Assembly (NCBI GenBank): GCA_003225175.1
Contig: QIBA01000053.1
Location: forward strand, 1-60,960
Length of the DNA: 60,960 nt
Reading direction: 5' to 3'
Source of the DNA: Acidobacteriota bacterium
GTDB taxonomy: Bacteria > Acidobacteriota > Terriglobia > Terriglobales > Acidobacteriaceae
The position numbers were made by a program, and so were the translations under genes. Below the pieces are notes generated by a model. It saw nothing but the letters and a program-made list of their open reading frames with translations. It was not told the origin of the DNA and ran no database searches. Below are positions 14,519 through 32,266 of this stretch, piece by piece; position 1 is the first letter of the stretch, and each line of letters begins with the position of its first letter.

Positions 14519-15325
14519 TTGGACGTGCGGCTGCCTCCCGGCAAAATCTTCGCAGTTTTGTTGGTCTGTATTTCACTCACCTTTGTTGGGCTAGTTGTTT
14601 CTCGCCAATGGTGGATGCCCCCGCCTGCTGCCAGCCATGCGCCCGCCCTTGATCGGCTAATTTTGTGGGCATTGATCGATGTGGGTGTCGCATTTGTGTT
14701 AGCGCACCTGCTTCTTGCCCTACTGCTCTGGAAATTTCATGCCAGGTCGACGCAAACGCACCTGACTGGCGCAGCGCGGATCGCCGTCATCGTCAGTGTG
14801 CTCTTTATTTCTCTTGAATTATTCAGCGCAGCCACGCTTGGCCGAAGTGCGTGGGGCAGCATGTTTTCTGAGTCTTCGGGCTCGCATGTTGTTAAAGCCC
14901 AGGTCATGGGGCAACAGTTCGCATATTACTTCCGCTATCCGGGAGCCGACGGGAAGTTCGGTCCAATCCATGTCGACAAGATCGATGCGAGCGTCGGCAA
15001 CTACTTCGGATTAGATCGAAAGAATGACGCGACTTCAAAGGACGACGTGGTAAGCGCGATGCTCATTCTGCCTGTGAATCAGCCAATTGAACTCGTTTTG
15101 AGCTCTCAAGATGTAATTCACAGCTTTTATGTTCGTGAACTCCGGGTTCAGCAGGACATGGTTCCTGGCATGCAGATTGCGATGCGGTTTACTGCGACGA
15201 AAATTGGTAAATACGAAATTGCCTGCACACAACTGTGTGGCCTGGGACATTACCGAATGCGTGCTTATTTGGAAGTGGTCTCGGACCCAGACTTCCAGAA
15301 ATGGATGCAGGTGCACGAACATTGA
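14519..15325 (+). CDS. ctaC: Cytochrome c oxidase subunit II
   Basis: 268 residues from a TTG at 14519, or 266 from GTG 14525. Three hydrophobic segments can be seen (KIFAVLLVCISLTFVGLVV, LWALIDVGVAFVLAHLLL, AARIAVIVSVLFISLEL), one more than the usual two. The periplasmic cupredoxin domain follows, with the CuA ligands: His in VIHSFYVRELR and the loop CTQLCGLGHYRM (C-x3-C-x3-H-x2-M). The usual acidic residue between the two cysteines is Gln here. Role: accepts electrons from cytochrome c and passes them to subunit I. First gene of the ctaCD-x-E operon. Confidence 0.92.
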   Translation: MDVRLPPGKIFAVLLVCISLTFVGLVVSRQWWMPPPAASHAPALDRLILWALIDVGVAFVLAHLLLALLLWKFHARSTQTHLTGAARIAVIVSVLFISLELFSAATLGRSAWGSMFSESSGSHVVKAQVMGQQFAYYFRYPGADGKFGPIHVDKIDASVGNYFGLDRKNDATSKDDVVSAMLILPVNQPIELVLSSQDVIHSFYVRELRVQQDMVPGMQIAMRFTATKIGKYEIACTQLCGLGHYRMRAYLEVVSDPDFQKWMQVHEH

Positions 15326-15357
15326 TAGGTTGACGGGTTGATGGACATCGACGAGCC

Positions 15358-17124: not shown

Positions 17125-17420
17125 ATTGGTTTTGGAAAATCGTATTCCCGATTGCAGTAGTCTGTGCGTTCTCAGTGATTTGTGTGAATGCGTTCGCGCA
17201 AGGCTGTGCGTCGTGTTACACGACCGCTTCTGCGGGGGGGCCACAGACCGCACGCGCTCTGAGGAGTGGAATTCTCCTACTTCTATTCCCACCAACTTTG
17301 ATCTTTGCCGGAATCGTCATCACGCTTCGAAGATGGAAGACCGGTGATGGAGCGCTCCCGAGACTTAGTGCTCGAGGGCCGGAATTCAAACGCTCTAAAA
17401 ACGATGAGAGGACGAAATGA
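17121..17420 (+). CDS. Small membrane protein in the cytochrome oxidase operon
   Basis: 99 residues, GTG start overlapping the ctaD stop (GTGA); its own stop overlaps the ctaE start (ATGA). It has a signal or first helix (FPIAVVCAFSVICVNAFAQ), a short loop with CASCY, a second helix (ILLLLFPPTLIFAGIVITL) and a basic cytoplasmic tail. The perfect coupling to ctaD and ctaE argues that it is real and works in the oxidase. The role may be structural, assembly or copper handling (two Cys); I do not recognise a family. Confidence 0.8.
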   Translation: MNWFWKIVFPIAVVCAFSVICVNAFAQGCASCYTTASAGGPQTARALRSGILLLLFPPTLIFAGIVITLRRWKTGDGALPRLSARGPEFKRSKNDERTK

Positions 17421-18100
17421 GCGTAGTGTCTCCGGTCTCGCTGGGGGATTCACGGGGTGGTCCTCCGTTAACATTCAATCGCCAAATCGCCTCCGATGAA
17501 GCCGAGTTTCCGCTTCGATTGAGACGATATCGGCTGGGACTCGCGTTGTTCGTCGCGGCAATAGCGATGTTGTTCGTTGGCTACAGCAGCGCTTACGTAG
17601 TTCGCCGAGGAATTCCCACCTTCGATGGTGCGACTGGAACCTATTCGGTCACGTGGGAGCCGCTGCGGCTTCCCATTGCGCTCCTTCTCTTCAATACTTG
17701 CCTTCTGATCTCCGCGAGCGGAGCTATCGAAGCCGTCCGGCGCAGAATGCCTGGTCTGCTGGTTGGGAAGGAACAAATTAAACAGGGCGCTATGCTTTGG
17801 CTGAACTTGTCCCTGCTATCGGGAACCGGGTTTCTCATCGGGCAGGGAATTGCGTGGCACTCATTGAGCTCCAATGCGCAATTCCTGAGTACGGGCGCGC
17901 GTACTGCCTTCTTTTATGTGCTCACGGGCACGCACGCTCTGCACGCGTTGCTCGGTGTGTTGGCTCTTGCGGTTGTAGCAGTTTTCTACGCGCGGATGTC
18001 CACAGTGCGAAAATGCCTTGCAATCGATCTGACCGCTTGGTACATGCACTCTATGACATTCTTCTGGATATATCTGCTTTGCTTCGTTCTGTTTGCTTGA
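17417..18100 (+). CDS. ctaE: Cytochrome c oxidase subunit III
   Basis: 227 residues and five helices, as in short bacterial CoxIII forms (LGLALFVAAIAMLFVGYSSAYVV, LPIALLLFNTCLLISASG, WLNLSLLSGTGFLIGQGIAW, HALHALLGVLALAVVAVF, SMTFFWIYLLCFVLF). Family features include the lipid-binding-side TGTHALHALLG and the C-terminal WYMHSMTFFWIYL. It stabilises subunit I and completes the ctaCD-x-E operon. Confidence 0.92.
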   Translation: MSVVSPVSLGDSRGGPPLTFNRQIASDEAEFPLRLRRYRLGLALFVAAIAMLFVGYSSAYVVRRGIPTFDGATGTYSVTWEPLRLPIALLLFNTCLLISASGAIEAVRRRMPGLLVGKEQIKQGAMLWLNLSLLSGTGFLIGQGIAWHSLSSNAQFLSTGARTAFFYVLTGTHALHALLGVLALAVVAVFYARMSTVRKCLAIDLTAWYMHSMTFFWIYLLCFVLFA

Positions 18101-18324: not shown

Positions 18325-19005
18325 TCAAATGACGGCGGCGATGCTCGTTCCAGTGGCTGCGAATACACCAGCTACCTCTAGCTCGGCAATTTCGAGGAAG
18401 CACTTTAGTACATGAGGATCAAATTGGGTGCCACTGCCGGCATTCAGGCGCCGGATCGCCTCCGCATGATCCAGGCCTTTGCGGTAACAACGGTTAGAGA
18501 TCATCGCATCGAAGGCGTCGACGATGGAAACAATGCGCGAGCCGAGGGGAATCTCGTCTGCTTGCAAGCCTCCCGGGTATCCGCTGCCGTCATACGATTC
18601 GTGATGATGAAGCGCGAACAGGCTGGCCTCTTCCAATCCGGGAAACAGTCTCAGAATCGACCAACTGTATTCGGGATGCTTGTTCATGATCGCGCGCTCT
18701 TCGTCGGTGAGTTTGCTCGGCTTCTTCAAAATTGCGTCGGGCACGCCAATCTTGCCGATGTCGTGCAACAGAGCGGCAACTTCATATTGGTACAAGTTCT
18801 CTTCTTCAATTCCCAATCTGCGCGCAACTCTCACGGCCCACTCTGCCAAACGAGTGCTGTGCACGCCAGTGTTGAGGTCTTTTAAGTCGAGCAACTGATT
18901 CAAAGCGCAGATTGTGGCAGTGCGCATGGTCACCTGCTGTTCTTCGAGTTCTTTCACTCGAAGAAACAGCGGTGACCAGGAATCAAATGTCTGATGCAGG
19001 CTCAT
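18325..19005 (-). CDS. HD-GYP domain phosphodiesterase
   Basis: 226 residues, essentially a bare catalytic domain after a ~40-residue helical lead. Visible motifs: HSTRLAEWA, LLHDIGKIG (HD at residues 81-82), HHHESYDGSGYPGGL (GYP at 142-144) and VDAFDAMISNR. HD-GYP enzymes hydrolyse cyclic di-GMP in the cytoplasm. No receiver or sensory domain is attached. It begins 21 bases after the subtilisin gene on the same strand, so it may be the last gene of the sigma/CHAT operon. The strength of its own ribosome site is poor. Confidence 0.92.
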   Translation of the reverse strand: MSLHQTFDSWSPLFLRVKELEEQQVTMRTATICALNQLLDLKDLNTGVHSTRLAEWAVRVARRLGIEEENLYQYEVAALLHDIGKIGVPDAILKKPSKLTDEERAIMNKHPEYSWSILRLFPGLEEASLFALHHHESYDGSGYPGGLQADEIPLGSRIVSIVDAFDAMISNRCYRKGLDHAEAIRRLNAGSGTQFDPHVLKCFLEIAELEVAGVFAATGTSIAAVI

Positions 19006-19026
19006 GTGGGTGGTCCAGGCGGGTTA

Positions 19027-20454
19027 CTACCAAATCCCGAGCGCATTTCTCCAGGCGCGCACGGCCTGATAGGTATCGAGCACGCCGTATCCATACTGCG
19101 AGTAGGAAATTTGCTGTGCGTGCGACAGAGCCTTAGCCGCCTGCTGCTTTGTCAGCAGGAGAGAATTCACATCGGCCATGAGAGCTACTGTGCCGGAGAC
19201 CAGCGGAGCGCTGAACGAAGTACCCCACCCTACTGCATAAGTGTTGAACGGGTAAGTCGTCATCACAGCTTCACCAGGGGCCGACAACCACACCGGCGGC
19301 GCACCATAGTTCGAGAACGCCGAAGGAGTATTGTTGTTCGAGGTTGAAGCGACGTCGATGACGTTAGGCAGTGCCGCCGGATATACGGTAGCCATTTGCC
19401 CATCATTCCCGGCGGACGCAACACAGATCACTCCGCGCATCGTCGCGTAATTGACCGCCGTCGCCAACTCCTGCGAGTAGGTAGTGAAATCGAAGCTCAT
19501 GCTGATGACCTTGGCTCCGTGGTTCACTCCGTAGTAAATAGCGCGCAAAACATCGGATGCGTATCCGGCGCCACTGGCATTAAATGCCTTCAAAGGCATG
19601 ATCTTGGCGTTGGGAGCAACCAGGTGCACGATGCCCGCGGTCATAGTCCCATGCCCAAATGCGGAATATTTCGTCTGGTCGACTACGCCAACAGTAGACT
19701 GATCGACAACGCCAACCGTGGACTGGTTGAGCTGCGCGGGTTGCGCTGAGCCATCAACCACTCCCACGGTCGACTGATTTATGTCTCCCATTTCCGACCC
19801 ACCCGATTGATTTCGCGTGAAGTCGTAACCGTACACCAGTCGACTCTTAAGGATGGCATTGTTCGGATCAACGCCGGTATCGATAATTGCTACGGTAACG
19901 CCACTTCCATTCACCGCATAAGAAGATTGCGTTGTGCTGGTTCTGACAATTTGGTTCGGAGTTTGTAGAACGTAGCCTTCCCAAACAGTTGCACCGTAGT
20001 ACGAGACCGGAGTTCTGTCGTTCAGGTAGTCAGGTGTGGCCCCGATCGAGGTTCCTTGTGTGGCTACAGCCTGGTCCTGTTCCACATTGGTAATGCCGCC
20101 GCCAGATAAGAGCTGCGTGATGACAACTACTGGGCTGAGAAGACTGGAAGTTGTTACAACGAAGAGTTGTCCATCAGGATCACCGATGCCTTCCAGCACC
20201 TTGCAGCCGAAAAGCAAGCAAGTCAGGTTCAAGCCGAGCAGGCCTTTAGTGTCGCGCACGATATAGCGATTAGTCGCGAGCAGTCCGCCCCCACCGAGCA
20301 ATCCGCCTAGCAGCTGTGCGTTGGTTTTCGCAGGAGCCGCTGTAATGGCAAATGTTGGCTGGACGTATACGGCGAACAACGCCAGGATTAAAGTTGCGCA
20401 GACCCCCGCCTTCGCTCGGCTGCATTTTTCGACAAAAGTCTTGTGGCTAGTCAT
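19027..20454 (-). CDS. Secreted subtilisin-like serine protease (S8)
   Basis: 475 residues: signal peptide (~10-37), a pro-region up to ~170, then an S8 catalytic domain with Asp192 (VAIIDTGVD), His268 (FGHGTMTAG), the oxyanion Asn in ASAGND and Ser413 (WGTSFSAPLVSG). All triad residues are present. Between Asp and His there is an insert with three copies of the octapeptide QSTVGVVD (residues 227-234, 244-251, 252-259). It lies in the minus-strand gene row behind an ECF sigma factor, a CHAT protease and a zinc-finger protein, 114 bases after the latter. It probably acts in the periplasm or outside the cell. Confidence 0.93.
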   Translation of the reverse strand: MTSHKTFVEKCSRAKAGVCATLILALFAVYVQPTFAITAAPAKTNAQLLGGLLGGGGLLATNRYIVRDTKGLLGLNLTCLLFGCKVLEGIGDPDGQLFVVTTSSLLSPVVVITQLLSGGGITNVEQDQAVATQGTSIGATPDYLNDRTPVSYYGATVWEGYVLQTPNQIVRTSTTQSSYAVNGSGVTVAIIDTGVDPNNAILKSRLVYGYDFTRNQSGGSEMGDINQSTVGVVDGSAQPAQLNQSTVGVVDQSTVGVVDQTKYSAFGHGTMTAGIVHLVAPNAKIMPLKAFNASGAGYASDVLRAIYYGVNHGAKVISMSFDFTTYSQELATAVNYATMRGVICVASAGNDGQMATVYPAALPNVIDVASTSNNNTPSAFSNYGAPPVWLSAPGEAVMTTYPFNTYAVGWGTSFSAPLVSGTVALMADVNSLLLTKQQAAKALSHAQQISYSQYGYGVLDTYQAVRAWRNALGIW

Positions 20455-20568
20455 CGGATCTCCAGTGACTCTCGTATTGCCTCTGAAATGAGAAGGGGGA
20501 CTACAGCGGGGGATTTCCAGTCTATCCAGCGCCTGACTCTATGGCCAGTTACGCTCGTAACCTTAATT

Positions 20569-21213
20569 TCAATTTGGTCCTCGACTAGCGCCACCCGGCC
20601 GCCGGCGTTCTTCTACTCCTGTTATCGGAAGGTAAACGGGAGCTCCGTCACCGACCGTGACCGAAAGGCGCAAGTTGTTCTTTAAAAGGAACTCAATCTG
20701 AAATTCACCGTTATTGTTACTAATGGCGCTGGCCACGTTCTTGCGGCCATCCAGAAGGACCACTGGTACCCCCGATACGGGATGACCAGGCCGGGCGCTG
20801 TCCAGCATCTGACCAACCAAGGCAGCGCGTTCGGAATTGACCTCAGAATCAACGCGCATATCTACGTAGACGGTTCCAACGCGGTACAACAACTGACGGG
20901 CCGAAGCCACGGAGGCCCTCGCTCCGGCCATCGCAGGTTGCCCAAAGCTGTCGAAGAGCAGTTCGAAGAAGCGTTTCGTGCGCGCGGTTCCCGGATGCTG
21001 CGTTCCGAAATATGCGTTCACTATGCGGACGGTTCCCGGCGGGGGCTCATAGGCCGTCTCGTTAGCGCCAACCCGCATGACTTCGCGGAAAAGCCCAATA
21101 AGATCCGAGCACTCGCGGCATTCCGCCACGTGCTCTCGAACTTGACTGGCCTCGGTTGGGGATAGAGTCTGCCGAATATATTCAGCCACCGATTCTTGAG
21201 GGATGTGCCGCAT
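20569..21213 (-). CDS. Zinc-finger (anti-sigma-like) protein with carboxypeptidase regulatory-like domain
   Basis: 214 residues. The N-terminus has His28-x3-Cys32-x2-Cys35 (REHVAECRECSDLIGL), the zinc motif of anti-sigma factors. The C-terminal ~80 residues (GVPVVLLDGRKNVASAISNNNGEFQIEF) form a beta-sandwich of the CarboxypepD regulatory type. No membrane helix is present, so it would be a soluble anti-sigma-like protein. Start ATG 21213, behind GGAGAA. It follows the CHAT gene by 109 bases. Regulation of the sigma factor at 24.2-24.8 kb is inferred from the motif and the neighbourhood. Confidence 0.78.
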   Translation of the reverse strand: MRHIPQESVAEYIRQTLSPTEASQVREHVAECRECSDLIGLFREVMRVGANETAYEPPPGTVRIVNAYFGTQHPGTARTKRFFELLFDSFGQPAMAGARASVASARQLLYRVGTVYVDMRVDSEVNSERAALVGQMLDSARPGHPVSGVPVVLLDGRKNVASAISNNNGEFQIEFLLKNNLRLSVTVGDGAPVYLPITGVEERRRPGGASRGPN

Positions 21214-21322
21214 CAGTTCTCCAAAAGGCGCTCAGTCCTCAGCGCCGGTCTATGCTTTTCCACGACTGACCATAAGTGCATGCGGCAGCCGGAAAAATAT
21301 AGGCCGAAGCTTAAAAAATTGC

Positions 21323-24205
21323 TCATGCTGGACTACCCGTGTATTTGCCCATCAGCACGAACGGAGCCCATTGACAGGGATGGGGATAGCGTTCGCGCAA
21401 CTGAAGCATCGCCTGGCGCAGCGAGTTCGCCTTGTCTTTGCCTTGTGTCAGCTGTTGGTAGAAGGCAGCCATGAAATCGGCCGTGCTCTGATCGTGGACA
21501 TCCCACAAGCTCAACAGTAAGGATTGCGCGCCTGCCTGAAACAACCCGCGAGCCAGGCCGATCAACTCATCTCCCGCTGCCACTACATTCAGGCCTGTGG
21601 CACAACCGCTGAGGGTCACCAGCTCCACTGGCAGGTGCAACTGATACAAGTCGTAAAGGCTCAAATAGGAACTGCCCATACGAATAGACGAGAACATTGG
21701 ACTGTCCTGACGAAAATAGCCGTGTGTTGCAATGTGGATCAGCCGTGCGCTTTGCGCGACGCTTTTGAGGATGTATTCACTGGCGAATCTACCAACGAAC
21801 ATCTTGGGCTGCGGCAGGATCTGGCACAGAGAACGCAATTCCGCAAGTATTGACGGTGCATTCTGATCTGGGACGCCCATTAACAACGCTGCTCCAGACT
21901 TGTTCACCACCTTCTTTGTACAGACGGCGTAGATGCTTGCGCTTGGCGCATAAGAGACTGTGTGGTCATCAATTAAATACCTGGCTCCATCGAACAACGC
22001 GTGAAAGGGAACGTAGTGCAGCGATCCGTGCGGCACAAAGAGGAGATGTCTCGCATCCATGCGGTCACGAATCGGCGCCAGGAGTTCGTCATATAAGGTT
22101 TTCAAATGCGCGTTCGTAGAGTGGATCAGCGAATCGCGAAATGCCGATGCGTATTCAGTTCCGAGCCGGAACTTTGAGAGTTGAAATTGCAGTAAACGCA
22201 ATGCGTTTCCGATTCGGGATGCCACCGTCACAGGAAGGATTTGGAGTCGCTCGCGCCCAAGCAGGCAGGCGAGAATGCGATCGCCTGTCTGGAAGTACTC
22301 GACGATAAGAGTGTCCGGAGTGATGGCCGCGCGCACTTCATCAATCGATACATTCTTGGTCGCTCGCATTTCCGGATTTTCAATTCCGGAAAGATTCGAT
22401 TCCTGCAGGACGCGTATTAAATCTGTTTCTCGCGCCCGTACCTGTTCCTCCAATCGCTTGATGTGTTCTGGAGACCGCTGCTCCGGGCGAAGCTGTTCGA
22501 GTTCGATCAGGCTGTAATACCAGTTCAACTCGTCCCGCAGCCCGCGCATTCGACGCACCAGATCGCTTTGACCGCTCTCGTCTGTGCTGGAGTACACCGG
22601 TTGCAGCATCTGATCCATCAGAGTGCGCGACTTGGCCTCTTCGATGTATGCGAATGCCTCGTCAAGCGAGTTGCCGCCATATTGCATGGAGAGGCATGAG
22701 TCCACCAGCAACTCATAGACTTCGAGCCGGTTCTTCAGAAAGGCTAACTTGAGCTCCTGGCCGCGCAGATTGCTGCGCAACATCTCCAGCGATTCGCGGG
22801 AAGTCCGAAAGCATTCGTACGCTTCCTTCTTGTTTCCCGAAAGAGAATGCATTTGCCCCATCAGCAGATACGCCTGATGACGCAACATCGGAGCCTGCAT
22901 GTCTTTCAGTCTCCCGATTGCAGTGCTGCATTCTTTGTGCGCGGCTGCAAGATCGTTCGTCCGTTGGGCGATGCGCGCGAGCAATAGCCGGCATAACACG
23001 GCTTTTCCCTGCAGCAGGGAGGAATCAAAGAACTCCAGAGCCGCCTTGGCCAGTCGACGAGCCTCGAAGTGTCTGCCCTCGTTAAACAACACGAGAGCCT
23101 GATACAGATCAATCAGCGAAGGCCAGATCTGATTGTTTTCCTTTGCGAACATCTCTCGAGAACGGGCAAAGACCTTCAAGCTCTGGAAGGCCTGGCCCTG
23201 CTGGCCCATAGCGATGGCTTCGAAGGCCAGGCACTTGGCGGATTCATAACCCATCTGGAGAGCCTCGAATTCAGCAAAGCCAAGCCGCGAAAGCTCGGCC
23301 GCTTCGGCGCTCAGATTGAGTTCCAGATAGAGTTCCGCGAGATCAAGGTTACAGAGACCGTAATGGTATCGATCGCCAATCTGATTGCAGCGCAGTCGTG
23401 TGGAGCGCAGCATGTCAATTGCGCGGCTATACTCACCGCGCAGAAAGTAGAGATAGGCGATGTTGTAATCTGCCTGCGCGACGAGCAGCGGCATGCCGTT
23501 CTTCTCGCAATGCTCGCGCGCATGCTGATGGGTCTCAAGCGCTTCGTGAAAATGCCCGAGACTGATGAGGCAAACCGAAAGATTGCTGAGCACCGCCGCG
23601 ATGCCTTCGCTGTTTCGGTGCTTGATCACGCCATCGTAAGCACGGCGGTAACATGCCAGCGCATCTGCGAACCGGTCCTGACGATAGAACACATTCCCAG
23701 TATTGATCTCGAGACGCGACAGCCGCAGTTCGTCGCCAAGTTGCATGAAGATAACCCGCGCGCGCTCGGCGGCTGAGAAGGCGGCCTCATAGTCACCGCA
23801 CAAGTTCAAAGAAAGCATGCTGGCGCTTAGAGTTCTTCCAACCTCCGCCACGTCTCCTGCTGAATCAAATAATTGGACCGCCTCCTTGTGGAGTTCAACT
23901 GCCGACGAATATTGGCCGAGCGCGTGTAGCGCGTTGGCCTTGATTCGGATGGCGTGGGCGGTTGCCGCTTTATCTCCTATCACTTTAGCGATCTCGATCG
24001 CCAGCTCTCCGAGATTGAGAGACCGGCGCGCGTCTATCCGCAAAAATTCTCGGGCGTGATTTGCGAGATCTACGATCGTATTGAGGTTCCACTGATCCTT
24101 TCGGGCCGCAACGAACGCGCTGCGAGCCTGCGGGTCAGAAATTGCCTCCAGCTCCTGCAGAACGAATTTTGTCGCCTCAATGGAAGCGCTTGCGCTCATT
24201 TCCAT
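21323..24205 (-). CDS. TPR-repeat protein with C-terminal CHAT (caspase-like) protease domain
   Basis: 960 residues. About residues 35-500 are consecutive tetratricopeptide helices (ALGQYSSAVELHKEAVQLF, VLSNLSVCLISLGHFHEALE). Then comes a helical linker, and from ~690 a CHAT domain: LLFVPHGSLHYVPFHALFD, the catalytic IHIATHGYF (His828), VTLSGCATG (Cys868) and LLLSLWDVHDQ. The His-Cys dyad is intact, so the enzyme should be a working cysteine protease of the caspase/separase group, probably switched by binding to the TPR part. The start lies inside the sigma gene (10-base overlap), so the two are translated together. Likely cytoplasmic. Confidence 0.93.
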   Translation of the reverse strand: MEMSASASIEATKFVLQELEAISDPQARSAFVAARKDQWNLNTIVDLANHAREFLRIDARRSLNLGELAIEIAKVIGDKAATAHAIRIKANALHALGQYSSAVELHKEAVQLFDSAGDVAEVGRTLSASMLSLNLCGDYEAAFSAAERARVIFMQLGDELRLSRLEINTGNVFYRQDRFADALACYRRAYDGVIKHRNSEGIAAVLSNLSVCLISLGHFHEALETHQHAREHCEKNGMPLLVAQADYNIAYLYFLRGEYSRAIDMLRSTRLRCNQIGDRYHYGLCNLDLAELYLELNLSAEAAELSRLGFAEFEALQMGYESAKCLAFEAIAMGQQGQAFQSLKVFARSREMFAKENNQIWPSLIDLYQALVLFNEGRHFEARRLAKAALEFFDSSLLQGKAVLCRLLLARIAQRTNDLAAAHKECSTAIGRLKDMQAPMLRHQAYLLMGQMHSLSGNKKEAYECFRTSRESLEMLRSNLRGQELKLAFLKNRLEVYELLVDSCLSMQYGGNSLDEAFAYIEEAKSRTLMDQMLQPVYSSTDESGQSDLVRRMRGLRDELNWYYSLIELEQLRPEQRSPEHIKRLEEQVRARETDLIRVLQESNLSGIENPEMRATKNVSIDEVRAAITPDTLIVEYFQTGDRILACLLGRERLQILPVTVASRIGNALRLLQFQLSKFRLGTEYASAFRDSLIHSTNAHLKTLYDELLAPIRDRMDARHLLFVPHGSLHYVPFHALFDGARYLIDDHTVSYAPSASIYAVCTKKVVNKSGAALLMGVPDQNAPSILAELRSLCQILPQPKMFVGRFASEYILKSVAQSARLIHIATHGYFRQDSPMFSSIRMGSSYLSLYDLYQLHLPVELVTLSGCATGLNVVAAGDELIGLARGLFQAGAQSLLLSLWDVHDQSTADFMAAFYQQLTQGKDKANSLRQAMLQLRERYPHPCQWAPFVLMGKYTGSPA

Positions 24206-24780
24206 CCTTTCAACACAAGCTGTTTCTTCAGGCGATCGAGGCAGCGCCCACGTATGAACCCGATAGATCCGGTAGCGAGCCCCAGTTTGCGCGCGATCTG
24301 CTCGTACGGCAGTGCGGGAACATCGAAGAAGAGCATTTGGATCATTTCGGCGCAGCGTCCGGATACGGCCGCAATTGCCTCGCGCAACATTTGCTCGCGC
24401 TGTACTTCCTCAATGATCGTGCCGGCGGTAACATTGGTTAATGCAAGATCTTCCGAAATTTCCTGGTCCGAAACCCGGCTCTGTTGCTGGCGCCATCGCG
24501 AGCATTTGTGCACGGTTGTCTGAATGAGCCACTTCGGCAGAGCTCGCGGTTCGCGTAAACGAGATAACTGCGAGTAGAGATCGACGCACACTGACTGAAA
24601 AATATCGTTGGCATCCTCTCGAGGGAGCTGCCACTTCACTGGAATCGAGTAGATCAGCTTCTTGTATTTTTCGATCAGCACGGACCATGCGTCCTGATTG
24701 CCGCGAATGCATTCTTCTACGAGACGCTCATCAGACCAGATGGTCGTAGACTCTTTCGCAAGTTTGGCGGTTGCGCTCAC
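24196..24780 (-). CDS. ECF-type RNA polymerase sigma factor
   Basis: 194 residues. Region 2 is DAWSVLIEKYKKLIYSIPVK ... DANDIFQSVCVDLYSQL; region 4 is ALPYEQIARKLGLATGSIGFIR, with its HTH. The start is GTG 24780, sharing GTGA with the stop of the substrate-binding protein gene; an AGGAG lies 13 bases upstream, a little far. The 3' end overlaps the CHAT gene. It therefore sits exactly between a peptide importer and a protease, coupled to both. It likely directs transcription of this operon or of stress genes; the target promoters are unknown. Confidence 0.92.
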   Translation of the reverse strand: MSATAKLAKESTTIWSDERLVEECIRGNQDAWSVLIEKYKKLIYSIPVKWQLPREDANDIFQSVCVDLYSQLSRLREPRALPKWLIQTTVHKCSRWRQQQSRVSDQEISEDLALTNVTAGTIIEEVQREQMLREAIAAVSGRCAEMIQMLFFDVPALPYEQIARKLGLATGSIGFIRGRCLDRLKKQLVLKGWK

Positions 24781-26546
24781 TTTGCTGCAGTGACTCCTTG
24801 TTGGCGGAAATAGAGTTCATCGGCATTCCACAAGGCGTATGGTTCGAGTGAGGCTGGGCGAAAATTTGCCACTTGCTTAGTAGCGCCTACCAGCACGTCG
24901 GGACTAGCTAAAAAAATAAACGGCAAATTGCTGGCAATAATGGCCTGAACTTCGTCGTAAATTCGTTTGCGCTTCTTGTAATCCATGGTGACCAATTGCT
25001 GATTCAGAAGCTCGTCAAGCTTCGCTTCCCATGGGGTTGCCGGCTTACTCTCATGCATGTTCCAAATATGCGTGCTGCCATTCGACATCCAAACGTTCAT
25101 GTCGCCATTGGGATCGGCATCGCCACCGCCGAGTCCAAGCACGCATGCCTCGTAGTCGTTCGATTGAAAAACGCGATCCACCACGGCGCGAAACTCAAGA
25201 GGCACAACGTGCACATTCATTCCAAGTTGGGCGAGATCATCGGCAATAATCGTCGCCATTTTCAGGCGCTGCGTATTCGAAGAACTCGTGATAATCGTGA
25301 ATTCGACCGGTTTCTTCTTAGCATCAACAAGTTTTCCATCCTGGCCCCAAGAAAATCCCGCAGACATCAATAGCTCCTTCGCCTGTGGAATTGAGCGTTC
25401 GGGATGCCGCAGCTCTCGATTGATCCACAGTTTGTTCCCTGGAGTCACGTTTCCCCAAATAGCCGCTCCGCGTCCGCCGTAAGCCAGCTTTACGATGCTC
25501 TGGCGATCTATGGCGAGGGAGACAGCCTCGCGAAACTTCAGGTCACGAAACCAAACCTGCTCTTGAGAGATCTGGGAGAATTTGTTGGGCGGCAGTTCAT
25601 TCAGATTGAAAAACAGGAAGTTGTATTCAAGGCTCGGGCCGAGATCAACCAGATCGTAGCCACGACTCTGCTGCTCGCGTGCCATTGAGGAATAATTTTC
25701 CGGGCTAAAGCGGCTGATGACGCTGGTTTCCCCGGACTGGAATCTTAGAATCTGCGCATCTTCGTTGCCGACGAAGAGAAACGTAATCTCGTCAAGGTAG
25801 GGTAGACGATTACCATTTCGGTCGGCCTTCCAGTAGTACGGATTTCGCTCTAAGACTAGTCTTTGGCCAGGCACATACTGCTTCAGCCGAAACGGCCCCA
25901 ATCCAACTACGGCTTCAGGAGCAGCGTTGAGTGTCAGCGCCTGATTGAACGATCCCTGCTCGTAGGTCTTCAACAACACATGTTCAGGAAGGATTGCCAC
26001 GCTGTCGAAAATGCGCTCAGCCGCAGCGTAGGGCCGGGACATGTCGAAGCGAACCGTGTGATCGTCGATCTTGACCGCAACGATTGGCTTGCCGCCAATT
26101 GTCAGAAGGTCGCGATTAGGAGAAAGGACCTTTTCATCGAGATACACCCGAAAGCTGAAGACTACGTCATCCGCACTGAAGGGCCGGCCGTCCGAAAAAC
26201 GTAGGCCGCGGCGAAGCTTGACGGTGAAGCTGCGACCATCCTTGGATAACTTCCACGAACTTGCGAGTGCAGGCTCTGTCTGCTGAGTTACACGATTGAT
26301 GTGCACAAGATCGGCCATCATTCGGCCGATCACCTCGCGTGCTGGCCCGTCAGTGGCTGTCACTGGATTGAGCGTTTTCGGCTCCGCCCGTTGTCCGACG
26401 ACCAGCGTGCCTCCATACTGGCCAACATCGGCTGAGCTGATTTGGAGCTCCTCGCCCTTCTGAATTCGCTCGGGTGCCGGGGCCGATGATGCATAAGCGG
26501 CACCCCCAACGATCGCGGCAAAGATGAGAAGAGCGAGCTTACGCAT
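24777..26546 (-). CDS. Peptide ABC transporter, periplasmic substrate-binding protein
   Basis: About 589 residues from ATG 26546, which starts right at a signal peptide (LALLIFAAIVGGAAYASSA); a start at 26603 would add a non-signal leader. It belongs to the family-5 (Dpp/Opp/YejA) solute-binding proteins: GGTLVVGQRAEPKTLNPV, ALASSWKLSKDGRSFTVKLR, RFSDGRPFSADDVVFSF, FRLKQYVPGQRLVLERNPYY and FREAVSLAIDRQSIV. It captures oligopeptides or a peptide-like compound in the periplasm. It overlaps permease 2 by eight bases and the sigma gene by three. Confidence 0.92.
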   Translation of the reverse strand: MRKLALLIFAAIVGGAAYASSAPAPERIQKGEELQISSADVGQYGGTLVVGQRAEPKTLNPVTATDGPAREVIGRMMADLVHINRVTQQTEPALASSWKLSKDGRSFTVKLRRGLRFSDGRPFSADDVVFSFRVYLDEKVLSPNRDLLTIGGKPIVAVKIDDHTVRFDMSRPYAAAERIFDSVAILPEHVLLKTYEQGSFNQALTLNAAPEAVVGLGPFRLKQYVPGQRLVLERNPYYWKADRNGNRLPYLDEITFLFVGNEDAQILRFQSGETSVISRFSPENYSSMAREQQSRGYDLVDLGPSLEYNFLFFNLNELPPNKFSQISQEQVWFRDLKFREAVSLAIDRQSIVKLAYGGRGAAIWGNVTPGNKLWINRELRHPERSIPQAKELLMSAGFSWGQDGKLVDAKKKPVEFTIITSSSNTQRLKMATIIADDLAQLGMNVHVVPLEFRAVVDRVFQSNDYEACVLGLGGGDADPNGDMNVWMSNGSTHIWNMHESKPATPWEAKLDELLNQQLVTMDYKKRKRIYDEVQAIIASNLPFIFLASPDVLVGATKQVANFRPASLEPYALWNADELYFRQQGVTAAK

Positions 26547-27558
26547 AGCTTCGTCCTGAGTTGATCCTGGCTCCAGCCTGGTGCAGTGCATCAGCGAGGA
26601 CAAAGTATGTGGTTGATACTGTGACCAGGGCCACCAGCGGAGCCGCCATCCACCAATAAGAGCTCACAGTTTGGAACTGCTGAAATGCCGAGAGCATGTT
26701 TCCCCAGCTGGGAATGGGCTCCCCAATCCCGAGTCCAAGAAAAGACAGCGTGGCTTCTGCTGCAATGAATTGTGGAATTAGAACCACGGCTTGTGTAGTG
26801 ATGATGCCCAGTGTCTGAGGAAGCACATGACACCGCAATAGATACCACTCCGATGCTCCGAATCCTCGAGCTGCTGCAACGAAGGGCCTCTCTCTAGCAC
26901 TGAGCACCACGCCACGAATCAGTCGCGCAGGACGTGCCCATCCCATTGCGCCGACCACAACAGATAAAAGGATCAAAGTTTTCGTTGGATCTACGTGCAA
27001 AGGAAGAGACGCGCGGAGCGCGAGCAATAAATAAATCCAGGGCAAGGCCAGAATGAGTTCTGAGCCGCGCATGACTAGCGTATCTGACAGTCCGCCAAAC
27101 TGTCCGGCGACGCCGCCAAGCACAACTCCGATCAGCAGCGACAACACAGTTGCCACGCTCGCGGCTAATAGCGACACACGTCCGCCAAACAAGACACGCG
27201 AAAAAATGTCTCTTCCATAGCCATCGGTTCCGAATAGAAACAAATGGGCCGGAGCATCCACAGATAGAAGATGCGTTCCATCTGAATTACGACTAAAGAG
27301 GCGAATGGGGTACGTGGAAGTGGGATCCTCACGGTATTGGAACCCGTCTCCTTCCACAGGAACTGAGGGGTAAACAAACGGACGAATATGTACATGGCCC
27401 GCGACATCTACGAAATGCAACTTAGTGGGCGCAGCGTAGGCATATTCCCTGTGCTGTGTTGCCGGCGTATAGGGAGCAAAGAACCCTGCGAACAAGATTC
27501 CACAATGGGCCGCCGCGAAGGCAGTTACGATGATGAACATCTTCCGACGGCTCAGCAT
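26539..27558 (-). CDS. Peptide ABC transporter permease (DppC/YejE-like)
   Basis: 339 residues. One N-terminal helix is followed by a periplasmic insert of ~90 residues that carries LFLFGTDGYGRDIFSRVLFG, typical of DppC/OppC/YejE. Then come the helices of the BPD_transp_1 domain with the coupling EAA loop AARGFGASEWYLLRCHVLPQ. The start overlaps the stop of permease 1. It forms the inner membrane channel with permease 1. Confidence 0.93.
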   Translation of the reverse strand: MLSRRKMFIIVTAFAAAHCGILFAGFFAPYTPATQHREYAYAAPTKLHFVDVAGHVHIRPFVYPSVPVEGDGFQYREDPTSTYPIRLFSRNSDGTHLLSVDAPAHLFLFGTDGYGRDIFSRVLFGGRVSLLAASVATVLSLLIGVVLGGVAGQFGGLSDTLVMRGSELILALPWIYLLLALRASLPLHVDPTKTLILLSVVVGAMGWARPARLIRGVVLSARERPFVAAARGFGASEWYLLRCHVLPQTLGIITTQAVVLIPQFIAAEATLSFLGLGIGEPIPSWGNMLSAFQQFQTVSSYWWMAAPLVALVTVSTTYFVLADALHQAGARINSGRSYA

Positions 27559-28523
27559 TCAGCCCTCACGCGCGGATCCAGCGCGTACAAAAACAAGTCG
27601 CTGGCAAGGTTCGCGAAGACCAGCAAAACGGAAAACAACATGACGACGGCCATCACGATGTGAAGATCGCGAGCGAAAACAGCATTAATAAAGAGAGGTC
27701 CCAATCCCGGCCATCCGGTGATGATTTCAATCAGGAATGATCCGCTTAGTAATCCGGCCAGGGATAGCCCAAAAAGCGAGATGAGTGGATTTGCGGCGGC
27801 CGGTAGGGCGTATTGCATGAGCAGGCGTTTATTTCCAATCCCGTGTCCCTTAGCGGCGTTAACAAATGGGGAGTTCCACGCTTCCAGCATGGCTGAGCGA
27901 ACATGACGAAACAGGATAGGCGACGCAGTCAGGGCAAGAGCCACTGCCGGAATTAGTAGATGACGAATCATGTCAGGAACAGCGAACCAGGCTGCACCTT
28001 CGGTGGGCAGTGAGCTCATTCCGCCAGTCGGCAACATTGCAAAGTGGGCTGCAGTGAACATCAAGAACATTGCTAGCGCCAGTTCGGGAGTACCGAGAAG
28101 AAGTGTTGATACTGCTGAATTGACACGATCGATCCAGCTCTGAGATCGGAACGCGGACCAAATTCCCAAAGGCAATGCCAGCGTCCACCCGATGAGCATG
28201 GCCGTCGTTCCCAGCAGAAGAGTGTTTCCCAGTCTGGTCCACAGAAGCTTGCTGACGGGCATGTTGTACGCCAATGAATAGCCAAAGCCACCCGTAGCTG
28301 CAGATGCAATCCACCGAAGGTAGCGGACCGGTAGAGGTTGATCGAGCCCGTACTGCATGCGAATGGCATTGATCGTTTGAGCGGAAATTTGCGGATTTAC
28401 ACGCATCTCGTCCAAGAATGTGCCCGGAGCGAGTTGCGCGATTCCAAATGTGAGCACCGAGATCGTCGCAAGCAATAGCACGGAGTGCACCAGGCGGCGT
28501 TTCAGGAAGCGAAGAGCGTTCAT
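27552..28523 (-). CDS. Peptide ABC transporter permease (DppB/YejB-like)
   Basis: 323 residues from ATG 28523, chosen because it overlaps the ATPase stop (ATGA) and has GGAGGTGAA upstream; the longer frame to 28601 is not needed. It has an N-terminal helix (FLKRRLVHSVLLLATISVLTF), the conserved RMQYGLDQPLPVRYLRWI, and a permease core with the EAA loop (AKGHGIGNKRLLMQYALPAA). It pairs with the second permease. Confidence 0.93.
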   Translation of the reverse strand: MNALRFLKRRLVHSVLLLATISVLTFGIAQLAPGTFLDEMRVNPQISAQTINAIRMQYGLDQPLPVRYLRWIASAATGGFGYSLAYNMPVSKLLWTRLGNTLLLGTTAMLIGWTLALPLGIWSAFRSQSWIDRVNSAVSTLLLGTPELALAMFLMFTAAHFAMLPTGGMSSLPTEGAAWFAVPDMIRHLLIPAVALALTASPILFRHVRSAMLEAWNSPFVNAAKGHGIGNKRLLMQYALPAAANPLISLFGLSLAGLLSGSFLIEIITGWPGLGPLFINAVFARDLHIVMAVVMLFSVLLVFANLASDLFLYALDPRVRAEC

Positions 28524-30160
28524 TTCACCTCCGAAAGTGCGAGTGATTGCCTCGTTTGAGCATCCACGAAGTGCTCCGTTGCGCGGGCGTTCATGTTGCA
28601 AATTTCAGCCGCTTCGTGTTCTTCCACGATGTTACCGGCTCGCATGATCAGGACACGCTCGGCGACCTTCGAGACAAGCTCCATGTCATGAGAGATGAGT
28701 AGCTGCGTAATTCCGAGTTTCCGTCGGAGACTTAGCAGTAACCCAAGTATCTCCTCTTGAGTTTGAGGGTCAAGACCTGAGAGGGACTCGTCGAAGATCA
28801 GCAGGCTGGGTTCAAGCACCAGGGCTCGCGCGATAACTAACCGTTGCTTTTGGCCGCCGCTGAATTCATGGCAGGATCGATCTGCGAACGAAGGGTCTAG
28901 TCCTGTTTGCTCCATCAATAATTCGGCCCGTCTCCTTCTGTCGGAACGACTACTGCGATTTTGAATTACGAGCGGCTCGGCTATAACTTCTGCAGCCGAC
29001 ATCCGTGGGTTCAGGGCCGCTGCTGGATCCTGAGAAACGTATTGCAGGCGCGGGCGAAACGCACGCAGCTGTTGCAATGGTAAGCAAAGGAGGTTTTTAT
29101 CCTCGAAAACAATCTCTCCCGCATCGGCTTCTTCCAGCAATGCCATGCAACGGGCTAGTGTTGATTTTCCCGAAGCAGAGGGGCCCACCAGGGCGGTCAA
29201 TGATCCTCGCGGGATGCTTAAGTTCACGGAATGAAGTGCCTGCTTGGAGGCGCTCCTTGTTTGAAACAATCCACGAGGCTGATAGCACTTACTCAGATTC
29301 CGCACCGCAATGAGAGGTGTTGCTTGCGGCGGCGAGAAGCCTTGCTTTGCCGCGGCCGGCACGCTGATGGACATCCCAGTTTCATTACCATTACTGAAAG
29401 GTAAACTGATTGTCCGATCCGCCAGCCTGTCTGTGACAGCGCGATCATGACTAATCACCAGGAACGCCGCTCCAGTCTCGCGTCTCAGAATCGCAATAAG
29501 GTCCAGAATTTCGTTTTTTAACGAAACGTCGAGACCCGTTGTCGGTTCATCGGCAATTACGAGCGCTGGGCGGCATATCAACGCTTGGGCCAGCACGACG
29601 CGATGACATTCGCCCCCGCTCAACTCGTGCGGATATGCCCGATAGTGACGATCTGCACCAAGTTTGACTTGGTTCAAAACCTGCCGTGCTTGCTGCTGGC
29701 ACCCTTGCCAATCCAGTGCGCTATGAGCTCGAAGCACCTTAGCGATCTGATCGCCTACGCGCATTACCGGACTTAACGCAAGAGCGGGCTCTTGATAGAT
29801 AATTGAAGCTTCCCGCCCACGGATTTTGCGGAGCTCAGACTCCTTAAGCTTTAGCAAGTCGTTTCCGCGAAAGAGCACCTCGCCGCGCGCAATCGCGCCA
29901 TACGGAAGGAGTCCCAAAATAGCCAATGCGGCTGATGTCTTGCCGCACCCGGACCGTCCTTGCAGCCCCACGACTTCGCCACTGTGGACCTCGCAGTTGA
30001 GGGCTTCCAGGATGACACGAGTTCCACCCCGCGTCGCATAGGAGACAGAGAGGTCGCGTACCTCAAGCAGGGTGCGTGATGGCGAACAAACGGGCAACAG
30101 ATACACTCCGTCCGCGAGCGCAGCCAAGGCGCCTGAATCGAGCAAGATAAGTATTTCCAA
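28520..30160 (-). CDS. Fused double ATPase of a peptide ABC transporter (YejF/OppDF-like)
   Basis: 546 residues from a TTG at 30160, or from GTG 30106, which has a weak GGA signal. It is two ABC domains in one chain. Domain 1: GRSGCGKTSAAL Walker A, ELSGGECHRVVLAQAL signature and LVIADEPTTGLD Walker B. Domain 2: GPSASGKSTLARC, FSGGQKQRLVIARAL and LLIFDESLSGLD (Ser in place of the usual Pro). This fusion is the arrangement of YejF. It energises import of peptides through the two permeases. First gene of the long minus-strand row. Confidence 0.92.
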   Translation of the reverse strand: MEILILLDSGALAALADGVYLLPVCSPSRTLLEVRDLSVSYATRGGTRVILEALNCEVHSGEVVGLQGRSGCGKTSAALAILGLLPYGAIARGEVLFRGNDLLKLKESELRKIRGREASIIYQEPALALSPVMRVGDQIAKVLRAHSALDWQGCQQQARQVLNQVKLGADRHYRAYPHELSGGECHRVVLAQALICRPALVIADEPTTGLDVSLKNEILDLIAILRRETGAAFLVISHDRAVTDRLADRTISLPFSNGNETGMSISVPAAAKQGFSPPQATPLIAVRNLSKCYQPRGLFQTRSASKQALHSVNLSIPRGSLTALVGPSASGKSTLARCMALLEEADAGEIVFEDKNLLCLPLQQLRAFRPRLQYVSQDPAAALNPRMSAAEVIAEPLVIQNRSSRSDRRRRAELLMEQTGLDPSFADRSCHEFSGGQKQRLVIARALVLEPSLLIFDESLSGLDPQTQEEILGLLLSLRRKLGITQLLISHDMELVSKVAERVLIMRAGNIVEEHEAAEICNMNARATEHFVDAQTRQSLALSEVK

Positions 30161-30446: not shown

Positions 30447-31340
30447 GTGATCCCTCGCGCACGAGGCTTGGCCGTCGCAGTTATTTCTTCCTCCATCTTT
30501 GCATTGAGCAGCTTGTGCTGCGCCTCGGATATCGTGGCCCACCCTGAGATGCTGGTTTCAACCGCGTGGTTGGCTGATCACCTGAACGATGCAAACGTGG
30601 TTGTTCTTCAGGTTGGACACGACCGCAGCGCTTATCAGAAAGAACACATCCCAACGGCCCGCTTCCTGAGTACGAACGATTTCACCACTGGGCATACCGG
30701 GCTGATGGTTGAATTGCCAACGGTTGAGAAGCTCAGGCAATCCTTCGAGGAATTGGGAATTAACGACGACACTCGCGTTGTAGTCTATACGACAGACTGG
30801 TATCCAGTAGCCTCGCGAGCATTCTTCACGCTCGACTACTTCGGACACACAAATACTGCGTTACTGGATGGAAGTCTTGCGCAATGGAAGGCGGAGAACC
30901 GTCCGGTGACGGCGGACGAACCTAGAATAATCAAGGGAAGAGTCACTCCGCACGTAAATGAGTCGGAGCTCGCTTTACTCACGGATGCGAAGGTCGCTTC
31001 GCAACCCCCCTCACAAGTGATCCTTGTGGATTCGCGTCCCCAAAAGCGTTATACGGCGGGACATCTTCCAGGAGCCGCCAATATCTTTTGGGAAGACACC
31101 GTTGCGAGTTCGAACAAACCGATTTTTCTGACCCCCAATAATTTGCGCCGATTGTTTGCTTCGAGAGGCATTGCAACAGGGCATAAGCTAATAACTTATT
31201 GTGAAATCGGCTTGCAGGCCTCGCATATGTATTTTGTGGCGAAATATCTCGGCTACGACGTCTCCATGTTCGATGGCTCGTTCTATCAGTGGGACGACGT
31301 CGAACACTTGGCGTCAGTTAAGGGGAACTCTCCGCGTTGA
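30447..31340 (+). CDS. Exported rhodanese-type sulfurtransferase (first of a pair)
   Basis: 297 residues from GTG 30447, with AGAGGAG 8 bases upstream. A signal peptide (AVAVISSSIFALSSLCCAS) is followed by two rhodanese domains, as in SseA-type thiosulfate/mercaptopyruvate sulfurtransferases. The inactive N-terminal domain carries HIPTARFLSTNDF, and the C-terminal one GHLPGAANIFWED and the catalytic loop TYCEIGLQAS with the persulfide Cys. Most SseA enzymes are cytoplasmic, so the export signal is a difference. It shares TTGA with the next gene. Confidence 0.88.
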   Translation: MIPRARGLAVAVISSSIFALSSLCCASDIVAHPEMLVSTAWLADHLNDANVVVLQVGHDRSAYQKEHIPTARFLSTNDFTTGHTGLMVELPTVEKLRQSFEELGINDDTRVVVYTTDWYPVASRAFFTLDYFGHTNTALLDGSLAQWKAENRPVTADEPRIIKGRVTPHVNESELALLTDAKVASQPPSQVILVDSRPQKRYTAGHLPGAANIFWEDTVASSNKPIFLTPNNLRRLFASRGIATGHKLITYCEIGLQASHMYFVAKYLGYDVSMFDGSFYQWDDVEHLASVKGNSPR

Positions 31341-32266
31341 ATCTGCCGGAAAGAGTTAAACAGACCTGTTGGAAATTCCTTGGCTTACTCCTGCTGACGA
31401 GTACTCTCAGTCTGTCGATTCATGCAGCAGAATCGAGGAATCCCATCAGAAGCGACATGTTAGTAACTACGGAATGGTTGGCTCATCATCTGCACGATTC
31501 CAATGTGGTTATTTTGTGCATCGTGGAGAGTGAGCAGTTTTATTCGTCCGGTCACATTCCTGGCTCTCGCATTGTTCAGCTAACAGAAATCGTGACCACC
31601 CGGGACGGCATTCCGAACGAACTGGCTGAGGTGAGCGCTCTCCAGCGTGTTTTTGAACGCGCCGGAATCAGTAATGAGTCGCGCATCATTCTTTATGGGG
31701 AACACGCGGGAATGCTGGCTGCTCGCGCCTATCTTACTTTGGACTATCTAGGGCTTGCTGATCGAGCGGCACTCTTGGACGGCGGTCTTGAAAAATGGCG
31801 AGCCGAACACCGTGTGGAATCAATGTCTGCTCCCCCGGTAGGAGTTAGTCATCTAGAGACTCACTCGCACCCTGAGATTCTTGTCAGCCTTGCGGAAATG
31901 ACTGAGTACTCACGATCGAAGAAGAAGGAAGCAGTACTGATAGATGCCCGTCCGAACGACGAATATACAGGCGCGAAGTTCTCAAGGGACGTGTCGAAGG
32001 CCGGGCATATTCCCAACTCTGTGGGCATTTATTGGCAAAATCTTCTACTAAACAACTCCATTCCCGAACTGAAATCAGCAGACGAGCTGCGGGAGCTATT
32101 CCGCGCGTCAGGAGCCTCTGCAGGCAAAGAAGTCATTACCTATTGCCGGACCGGTATGCAGTCTTCTTTCAGCTACTTCGTAGCGAAATATTTGGGATAT
32201 AAGTCCCGTATGTACGATGGCTCCTTCTATGAATGGAGTCGCTCGCCCCTTCCCGTTGAACACTGA
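31337..32266 (+). CDS. Exported rhodanese-type sulfurtransferase (second of a pair)
   Basis: 309 residues, TTG start inside the previous stop. It has the same plan as its neighbour: signal peptide (FLGLLLLTSTLSLSIHAAES), an N-terminal rhodanese domain (SSGHIPGSRIVQLTEIV) and a C-terminal domain with VLIDARPNDEYTG, AGHIPNSVGIYW and the active loop TYCRTGMQSSFSYF. Both copies end in MYDGSFYEW or MFDGSFYQW, so they are a tandem duplication that has diverged. Likely periplasmic sulfur transfer; substrate unknown. Confidence 0.88.
   Translation: MNLPERVKQTCWKFLGLLLLTSTLSLSIHAAESRNPIRSDMLVTTEWLAHHLHDSNVVILCIVESEQFYSSGHIPGSRIVQLTEIVTTRDGIPNELAEVSALQRVFERAGISNESRIILYGEHAGMLAARAYLTLDYLGLADRAALLDGGLEKWRAEHRVESMSAPPVGVSHLETHSHPEILVSLAEMTEYSRSKKKEAVLIDARPNDEYTGAKFSRDVSKAGHIPNSVGIYWQNLLLNNSIPELKSADELRELFRASGASAGKEVITYCRTGMQSSFSYFVAKYLGYKSRMYDGSFYEWSRSPLPVEH

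Follow-up and report, generated by a model that had tools for sequence, protein, structure and literature searches.

In yeast, several copies of the alpha-factor peptide are carried in one secreted precursor, which is cut by the subtilisin-type protease Kex2. In the RRNPPA systems of Bacillota (Rap/Rgg/NprR/PlcR/PrgX/AimR), a short secreted peptide, sometimes present in several copies, is imported by Opp and read by a cytoplasmic TPR protein; according to two papers, a propeptide can contain between one and four copies of the pheromone, which extracellular proteases (WprA, for example) mature and Opp imports (PMC9765709, PMC11343458). In the type III-E CRISPR Craspase (Csx29 TPR-CHAT, Csx30 and CASP-sigma), one report describes the CHAT protease Csx29 as cleaving Csx30, an inhibitor of an extracytoplasmic function (ECF)-type sigma factor (PMC10028731). 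Zinc-binding anti-sigma (ZAS) pairs such as SigR-RsrA and RpoE-ChrR combine an ECF sigma factor with a small soluble protein that carries a His/Cys zinc motif. Here we describe a gene cluster from Acidobacteriota, a phylum abundant in soil, that can be compared with each of these systems. The cluster lies on contig C53 of a draft genome (5.73 Mb, 268 contigs); the entire contig, 60,960 bases, was analyzed and is referred to as the window. Among named relatives, the closest that were found are Acidobacteriota assembled from metagenomes, one of them labelled gp1. The cluster encodes a four-gene Opp-type importer, an ECF-type sigma factor, a TPR-CHAT protein, a zinc-finger protein, a secreted S8 subtilisin, and an HD-GYP-type protein. 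The gene set looks like an undescribed way to send and sense peptide signals, in which a protease serves as the precursor, a CHAT protease as the presumed receptor, and a sigma factor as the output. In the open-licence PMC literature, viewed as titles and the start of abstracts and with subscription papers and preprints apart, we found no paper describing such a system, and no description of peptide signalling in Acidobacteriota.

Like the RRNPPA systems, the cluster has a protein with TPR repeats, which by analogy would bind an imported peptide. It differs from them in that the peptide repeats are built into an intact subtilisin and not into a small propeptide, the protein with TPR repeats belongs to the CHAT proteases, an ECF sigma factor would be the output, and the phylum is Acidobacteriota. 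No helix-turn-helix, Rap-family, or RRNPPA model from Pfam or NCBIfam matched the CHAT protein above threshold. Like Craspase, the cluster encodes a TPR-CHAT protease with catalytic His and Cys residues together with a sigma factor and a putative inhibitor, and the relatives of its CHAT domain in the PDB are Csx29/TPR-CHAT chains. Unlike Craspase, the inhibitor is a zinc-finger protein rather than Csx30, and an S8 protease and a peptide importer are added; a family-model scan of the nine cluster proteins found no Cas7-11 or other CRISPR effector. The ECF sigma factor and the small soluble zinc-motif protein resemble a ZAS pair but have a CHAT gene between or beside them. With alpha-factor and Kex2 the cluster has in common a multicopy precursor and a subtilisin-type cutter, here combined in one polypeptide.

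Our working model is a peptide-signalling circuit of Acidobacteriota that runs from the S8 precursor and protease through the importer, TPR-CHAT protein, and anti-sigma factor to the ECF sigma factor, and we place it about midway between doubtful and probable. The secreted subtilisin would serve as the precursor of a peptide signal and also as the protease able to mature it. Octapeptide repeats located between its prodomain and catalytic His would be excised in the envelope or outside the cell, and the octapeptide would then be taken up by the neighbouring Opp-type importer and bound by the TPR part of the cytoplasmic TPR-CHAT protein. The activated CHAT protease would inactivate the zinc-finger anti-sigma factor, and the freed sigma factor would turn on its targets, probably including the cluster itself. 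Each cluster would have its own peptide code, and all copies, those in extra S8 genes of the genome included, would change it together because they must fit one receptor. Slightly more tentatively, we suggest that this is a pheromone system outside Bacillota in which a multicopy pheromone is carried in its own releasing protease, has a lineage-specific code, and as an imported octapeptide activates a caspase-like TPR-CHAT protein to free an ECF sigma factor. If this is correct, the precise signal of a strain can be read from its sequence (QSTVGVVD for the window), so that the system can be tested with synthetic peptides; CHAT-regulated proteolysis, so far known for CRISPR, would be joined to cell-cell signalling; and the code would provide kin recognition in Acidobacteriota.

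Octapeptide repeats in the S8 subtilisin

The S8 subtilisin of the window (19027..20454, minus strand; Peptidase_S8 E 4e-35, signal peptide recognized by eye) contains three copies of QSTVGVVD, all in the loop that leads from the catalytic Asp to the catalytic His. The copies occupy residues 227-234 (19753..19776), 244-251 (19702..19725), and 252-259 (19678..19701), each on the minus strand. The protease is intact, and its Asp192/His268/Ser413 triad and Asn350 are kept in 77 of 77 proteins. In other S8 proteins the copies are found in the Asp-His loop, at the propeptide end, or at both places; in locus L129, for instance, the prodomain match covers residues 28-102, the S8 match begins at residue 154, and the octapeptide copies lie between them. 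At least two motif copies precede the His in 66 of 87 S8 proteins, for a total of 210 copies in 29 forms, which include QRTVAVLD, QSTTSILD, QSTAGILE, QSTSTVLE, QRSQAFID, and QKGAAFVD. Chance repeats were rejected as a source of this pattern, since a repeated 8-mer occurs in 70 of 83 S8 proteins versus 28 of 793 other open reading frames (ORFs) of at least 300 amino acids. The corresponding control with unlinked S8 genes is thin, with one complete ORF readable among five loci. The original prediction, which had postulated circuit peptides, overlooked the repeat, in our view the most telling feature of the cluster; a candidate peptide is now found inside the S8 protein.

Several S8 proteins depart from the common layout. 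The S8 protein of L076 (10075-11976) has about 16 octapeptide copies in arrays interrupted by a longer unit (DGATRKQFGSARGIHRN). Loci L120 and L121 carry DPRTIVFI and DPRTFVFI, twice; their S8 genes (L120:13303-14928, L121:1887-3689) lie on the strand opposite the sigma and CHAT genes and encode D/N-rich low-complexity tracts in addition to the DPRT(I/F)VFI repeat. In loci L140, L143, L144, L145, L146, and L147 of family f22, a 6-residue tandem repeat (GRSWAI, GLSWAA, GRSWSI, etc.) stands at the propeptide end of the S8 protein in place of the octapeptide, and these loci encode a relative of the zinc-finger protein that has no zinc finger.

Twelve genomes were searched with exact back-translated patterns of four octapeptide forms. 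QSTVGVVD gave five matches in genome G000, QSTAGVID four in G005 and none in the five congeners of G005, QSTTSILD seven in each of G110, G155, and G184, and QSTAGILE eight in G055. All 38 matches fall within S8 genes; the reversed patterns used as controls matched nowhere. For these forms and genomes, the search thus revealed neither a second protein with the octapeptide nor a small separate propeptide gene. This result bears on an alternative in which the octapeptides are stacking beta strands through which S8 proteins from the same genome would assemble together; pairing would require identical copies, as it does in amyloid-type signalling motifs. The residues are beta-prone, the copies match within and between the S8 proteins of a genome, and a degenerate related strand often lies between copies, all of which would suit assembly. 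However, with the motif in no other gene of the 12 genomes, there is no non-S8 partner to be joined, and the importer is left unexplained, so that we regard homotypic assembly as rather improbable.

Concerted change of the octapeptide code

The copies within a protein are old as DNA and yet alike as peptides, because their codons have diverged while their amino acids match. Among 62 proteins (four extra loci left out), 290 of 321 within-protein copy pairs are identical in amino acid sequence, with a synonymous difference (pS) of 0.691 and a nonsynonymous difference (pN) of 0.034. Without L076, whose 16 copies contribute 120 pairs, 185 of 201 pairs are identical (pS 0.661, pN 0.043). In 55 of the 62 proteins every counted copy has the same amino acid sequence, and of the seven proteins with non-identical copies, two owe this to a chance motif match. 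Between proteins, only 120 of 2145 copy pairs are identical (66 proteins; pS 0.739, pN 0.267). In addition, serine codons of the TCN and AGY types are mixed at one motif position in 12 proteins.

These values were set against the possibility that the repeats are kept alike at the DNA level, by gene conversion or recent duplication, and have no peptide function. Duplication does create repeats, and L076 has tandem arrays. Yet the within-protein pS of 0.69 is near the between-protein value of 0.74 while the amino acids match, and together with the mixed serine codons this refutes conversion or duplication as the full explanation; we give that account next to no chance. As judged from the codons, gene conversion does not account for the concerted peptide evolution, and a shared recogniser acting in trans would.

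Sharing of the code extends beyond single genes. In 16 genomes, nine extra S8 genes were resolved, and each of them has the same octapeptide as a cluster S8 gene of its genome, although the nine are not independent, as the G063 pair are sisters in a tree from which the repeats were left out. The count omits two additional matches, both weak (79-80 bits). Five of the extra genes are tandem partners (G055, G110, G155, G184, and G197), and four lie away from the CHAT cluster (on contig C40 of G000, C138 of G001, C27 of G005, and C60 of G063). In G005 and G063, each with two clusters that differ in code, the extra gene agrees with one of the two. In the S8 tree built without repeats, the tandem paralogues form two clades (support 96/88 and 100/97), and parallel code changes within one genus are seen in both clades for G055, for G197, and for the trio G110/G155/G184, which by our count would be three parallel shifts. 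An orphan clade of G000, G001, and G005 (97/86) has QSTVGVVD in G000 and G001 and QSTAGVID in G005, each as in a cluster of its own genome. The code thus appears from the tree to be common even to paralogues that split before the species did. Such drift of matching copies across loops, genes, and contigs calls for one partner that reads all of them, and whatever the function, identical copies with saturated synonymous change, common to the paralogues of one genome, leave a strong and unusual trace of co-recognition.

The sharing also bears on an explanation in which the octapeptides are cut sites for self- or sibling maturation of the S8 proteins, matching the cleft of the processing enzyme, with the importer feeding the cell and the sigma/CHAT genes running a protein-scavenging regulon. 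Subtilisins mature by self-cleavage, which supports this model, and so does the position of the repeats, which are found between the prodomain and the catalytic domain as well as in the loop that precedes the catalytic His; an importer and a secreted protease also suit scavenging. Self-recognition alone, however, leaves the shared, changing code of paralogues with diverged cores unexplained, so that cross-processing would be needed. The up to 16 tandem copies of L076 exceed the needs of maturation, and no excess co-change of S8 core columns with the peptide was detected, in a test of low power. We consider a role as processing sites unlikely.

Two further features of these genomes concern the extra genes. 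Contig C298 of G001 carries an S8 gene with QSTAGILD, genes for a zinc-finger protein and a sigma factor, and half of an ATPase gene; as the remaining half ends contig C93, the two contigs are probably parts of one second cluster. The orphan pairs at L088:8411-10450 (G000:C40), L183:8666-10694, and L184:7518-9777 consist of an S8 gene and a gene for the C-terminal domain of the zinc-finger protein, away from the CHAT clusters. The pairs of G000, G001, and G005 retain this C-terminal domain without the zinc finger, and its occurrence beside orphan S8 genes is a further difference from the ZAS pairs.

Conservation of the cluster and the place of the importer

Full-length relatives of the CHAT protein were found in 6 of 6 genus genomes, 59 of 398 family genomes, and 51 of 396 genomes of a phylum sample (E <= 1e-40 for the family and phylum counts, with some phylum-sample matches weak at <200 bits). 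We took 54 loci from the family and 40 from outside it, and with the CHAT gene located by hidden Markov model search in 53 family loci and the window, 94 clusters were available. A locus was considered well covered when its sequence reached 6.5 kb or more upstream and 5.5 kb or more downstream, which held for 36 loci in the family and 25 outside. In the family loci, the sigma gene is present in 35, the zinc-finger gene in 35, the S8 gene in 34, at least one of the solute-binding protein (SBP) and two permease genes in 34, and the HD-GYP gene in 19. The corresponding numbers outside the family are 24, 24, 22, 9, and 1. The order in the family is importer-sigma-CHAT-zinc finger-S8, and outside it is mostly sigma-zinc finger-CHAT-S8. 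Since gene order is kept across CHAT identities of 38-88%, the cluster is more than a chance assembly: it is conserved, and its sigma/zinc-finger/CHAT/S8 core recurs across the phylum. The cluster search covered Acidobacteriota, and CHAT was additionally searched on plasmids, where 32 of 72,556 records matched and none reached 80% query coverage.

The original prediction had tied peptides, importer, protease switch, and sigma factor into one circuit and had included HD-GYP in the core set. The linkage and the S8 octapeptide bear out the circuit in outline, and the synteny of the sigma, CHAT, zinc-finger, and S8 genes holds with and without the transporter; the transporter adjoins them in 34 of the 36 family loci and in 9 of the 25 outside, against the forecast's own refuting case that it would not be. 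The HD-GYP gene, which is linked in only some of the family, drops out as an accessory.

The importer is found upstream in line, divergent (L114, L129), or reordered (L125), and in L051 the S8 block is inverted. Twenty genomes contain 2-13 SBP genes each, and on background rates of 1.5-5%, our own estimate given these numbers, the probability of finding an importer at 9 of 25 loci by chance is ~6e-11 to 2e-6. In G063, a complete importer (ATPase, two permeases, and SBP) adjoins the divergent extra S8 gene, which carries QSSAAILD; this 15.8-kb stretch gave no sigma, zinc-finger, or CHAT match, and the two CHAT clusters of G063 gave no importer match within their stretches. An importer beside an S8 gene without sigma or CHAT genes indicates that importer and S8 are tied directly. 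With a peptide importer kept beside the S8 gene, import is the simplest link to a cytoplasmic TPR-CHAT protein. The window's importer gene set is complete for the Opp/Dpp type (two permeases, ATPases, and a family 5 binding protein). Family 5 binding proteins also take ligands other than peptides, and a peptide substrate is predicted here from gene linkage.

A link to defence had also been proposed for the CHAT and S8 proteases. Such a reading would make the cluster a CHAT-based module for defence or cell death, and the importer an unrelated neighbour. CHAT and S8 proteins do occur in defence systems, and when five of the nine proteins were scanned with PADLOC, S8 and CHAT gave subtilase, IetS, BovA, and TPR matches, generic ones only, and the other three gave none. 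Against this, the importer has been kept and re-acquired next to the cluster, none of the nine genes was recognized as a toxin, nuclease, or CRISPR gene, and the concerted peptide evolution would be unexplained. The proposed link finds no support, and we judge a defence module very unlikely.

The sigma factor, zinc-finger protein, and CHAT protein

The ECF-type sigma factor (24196..24780, minus strand) matches Sigma70_r2 and, above the cut-off, TIGR02937 (sigma70-ECF). The zinc-finger protein (20569..21213, minus strand) consists of an N-terminal zinc finger (His3, His28, Cys32, and Cys35; zf-HC2 E 2e-6) and a C-terminal beta domain, and is probably the anti-sigma factor of the neighbouring sigma factor. 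Its matches to anti-sigma models (E 2e-5 and, for the RsrA-type model, 2.5e-4) are below the cut-off. The window protein and 70 of 85 relatives carry an H/C - H-x3-4-C-x2-C zinc motif, the pattern typical of ZAS proteins; when strict spacing was required the count was 26 of 87, and the relaxed count allows for the extra residue that many relatives have between His and Cys and omits L114 and L130, in which the best ORF is not the gene. The spacing in the window protein presumably resembles that of ChrR. A PDB search with the N-terminus gave one match, which was spurious.

The TPR-CHAT protein (21323..24205, minus strand; CHAT E 4e-64, with TPR repeats) has the dyad His828/Cys868. His828 is kept in 92 of 94 clusters and Cys868 in 93, so that this dyad, like the S8 triad, is intact as forecast. 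Its NCBIfam matches are AfsR and others, with NF041237 far below the cut-off of 300 bits. By analogy with the cleavage of Csx30 by Csx29, we infer that the CHAT protein may act on the zinc-finger protein. The f22 loci and some others lack the zinc finger, and the switch may differ there.

Evidence against the proposed circuit

Several observations weigh against the signalling circuit as drawn. Gene linkage, intact active sites, the repeats, their concerted change at the protein level, code sharing within genomes, and the lack of the octapeptide outside S8 genes in the genomes searched are observed, whereas release, import, TPR-CHAT sensing, anti-sigma cleavage, sigma activation, and autoregulation are predicted steps. 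A search for the receptor by co-change on the tree, over 2328 columns in eight proteins and with peptide changes on 25 of 94 branches, gave a best p of 4.5e-4 (one CHAT and one SBP column), and no column survives multiple testing. The importer is absent from 16 of the 25 well-covered loci outside the family, and both clusters of G005 are without an SBP match. Fifteen of 85 relatives lack the zinc finger. Structure prediction from three-sequence alignments (window, L081, and L082) was unusable, with a mean predicted local distance difference test score (pLDDT) of 30.9 for the S8 protein and 35.3 for the zinc-finger protein. The repeat itself is not universal: five S8 proteins show a 6-residue period (GRSWAI and similar) instead of the octapeptide, no repeated 6-mer was found in the S8 proteins of L117, L135, L136, L137, L148, L149, and L150, and those of L139 and L142 have no repeat before the His. 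Some internal copies are degenerate and uncounted by the motif, such as the NASTVAIL-type strand between true copies in several proteins, and thus not every related strand is held to the octapeptide code.

Gene layout of the window

Pfam and NCBIfam searches confirmed the nine cluster genes at the predicted places, all on the minus strand. The importer ATPase (28520..30160, minus strand; longest ORF with a TTG start) has two fused ATP-binding domains, seen as two ABC_tran stretches. Its best NCBIfam matches are of the YejF/NikE/OppF type, of which only NikE is above the equivalog cut-off. It is followed by a permease of the OppB/DppB type (27552..28601, minus strand; BPD_transp_1 and its N domain), a permease of the OppC/DppC type (26539..27558, minus strand; BPD_transp_1), and the family 5 (oligopeptide/dipeptide type) SBP (24777..26603, minus strand; SBP_bac_5 E 2e-83), which has a signal-peptide-like start by eye and AppA, DppA, and OppA as PDB relatives. 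The HD-GYP-type protein (18325..19005, minus strand) matches HD_5. From the ATPase to the HD-GYP gene, the gaps between neighbours are -82, -7, -65, -4, -10, +109, +114, and +21 bases. The longest ORFs therefore overlap from the ATPase through CHAT, as had been claimed, and the zinc-finger, S8, and HD-GYP genes are spaced by 109, 114, and 21 bases. With later starts of our own choice (P2 Met27 and SBP Met20) the overlaps would be fewer, the first being removed and the third shrunk.

In a search for a shared promoter, upstream sequences from two close relatives aligned with that of the window only near the ORF start, and inspection by eye revealed no motif in common with the orphan pair on C40. 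On the HD-GYP side of the cluster, cytochrome oxidase genes (14519-18100, assigned by eye) stay beside HD-GYP in the four genus relatives L047, L048, L049, and L050. On the other side, two adjacent rhodanese-like proteins (30447-32266, also by eye) are encoded divergently from the importer and are conserved in L047 and L048.

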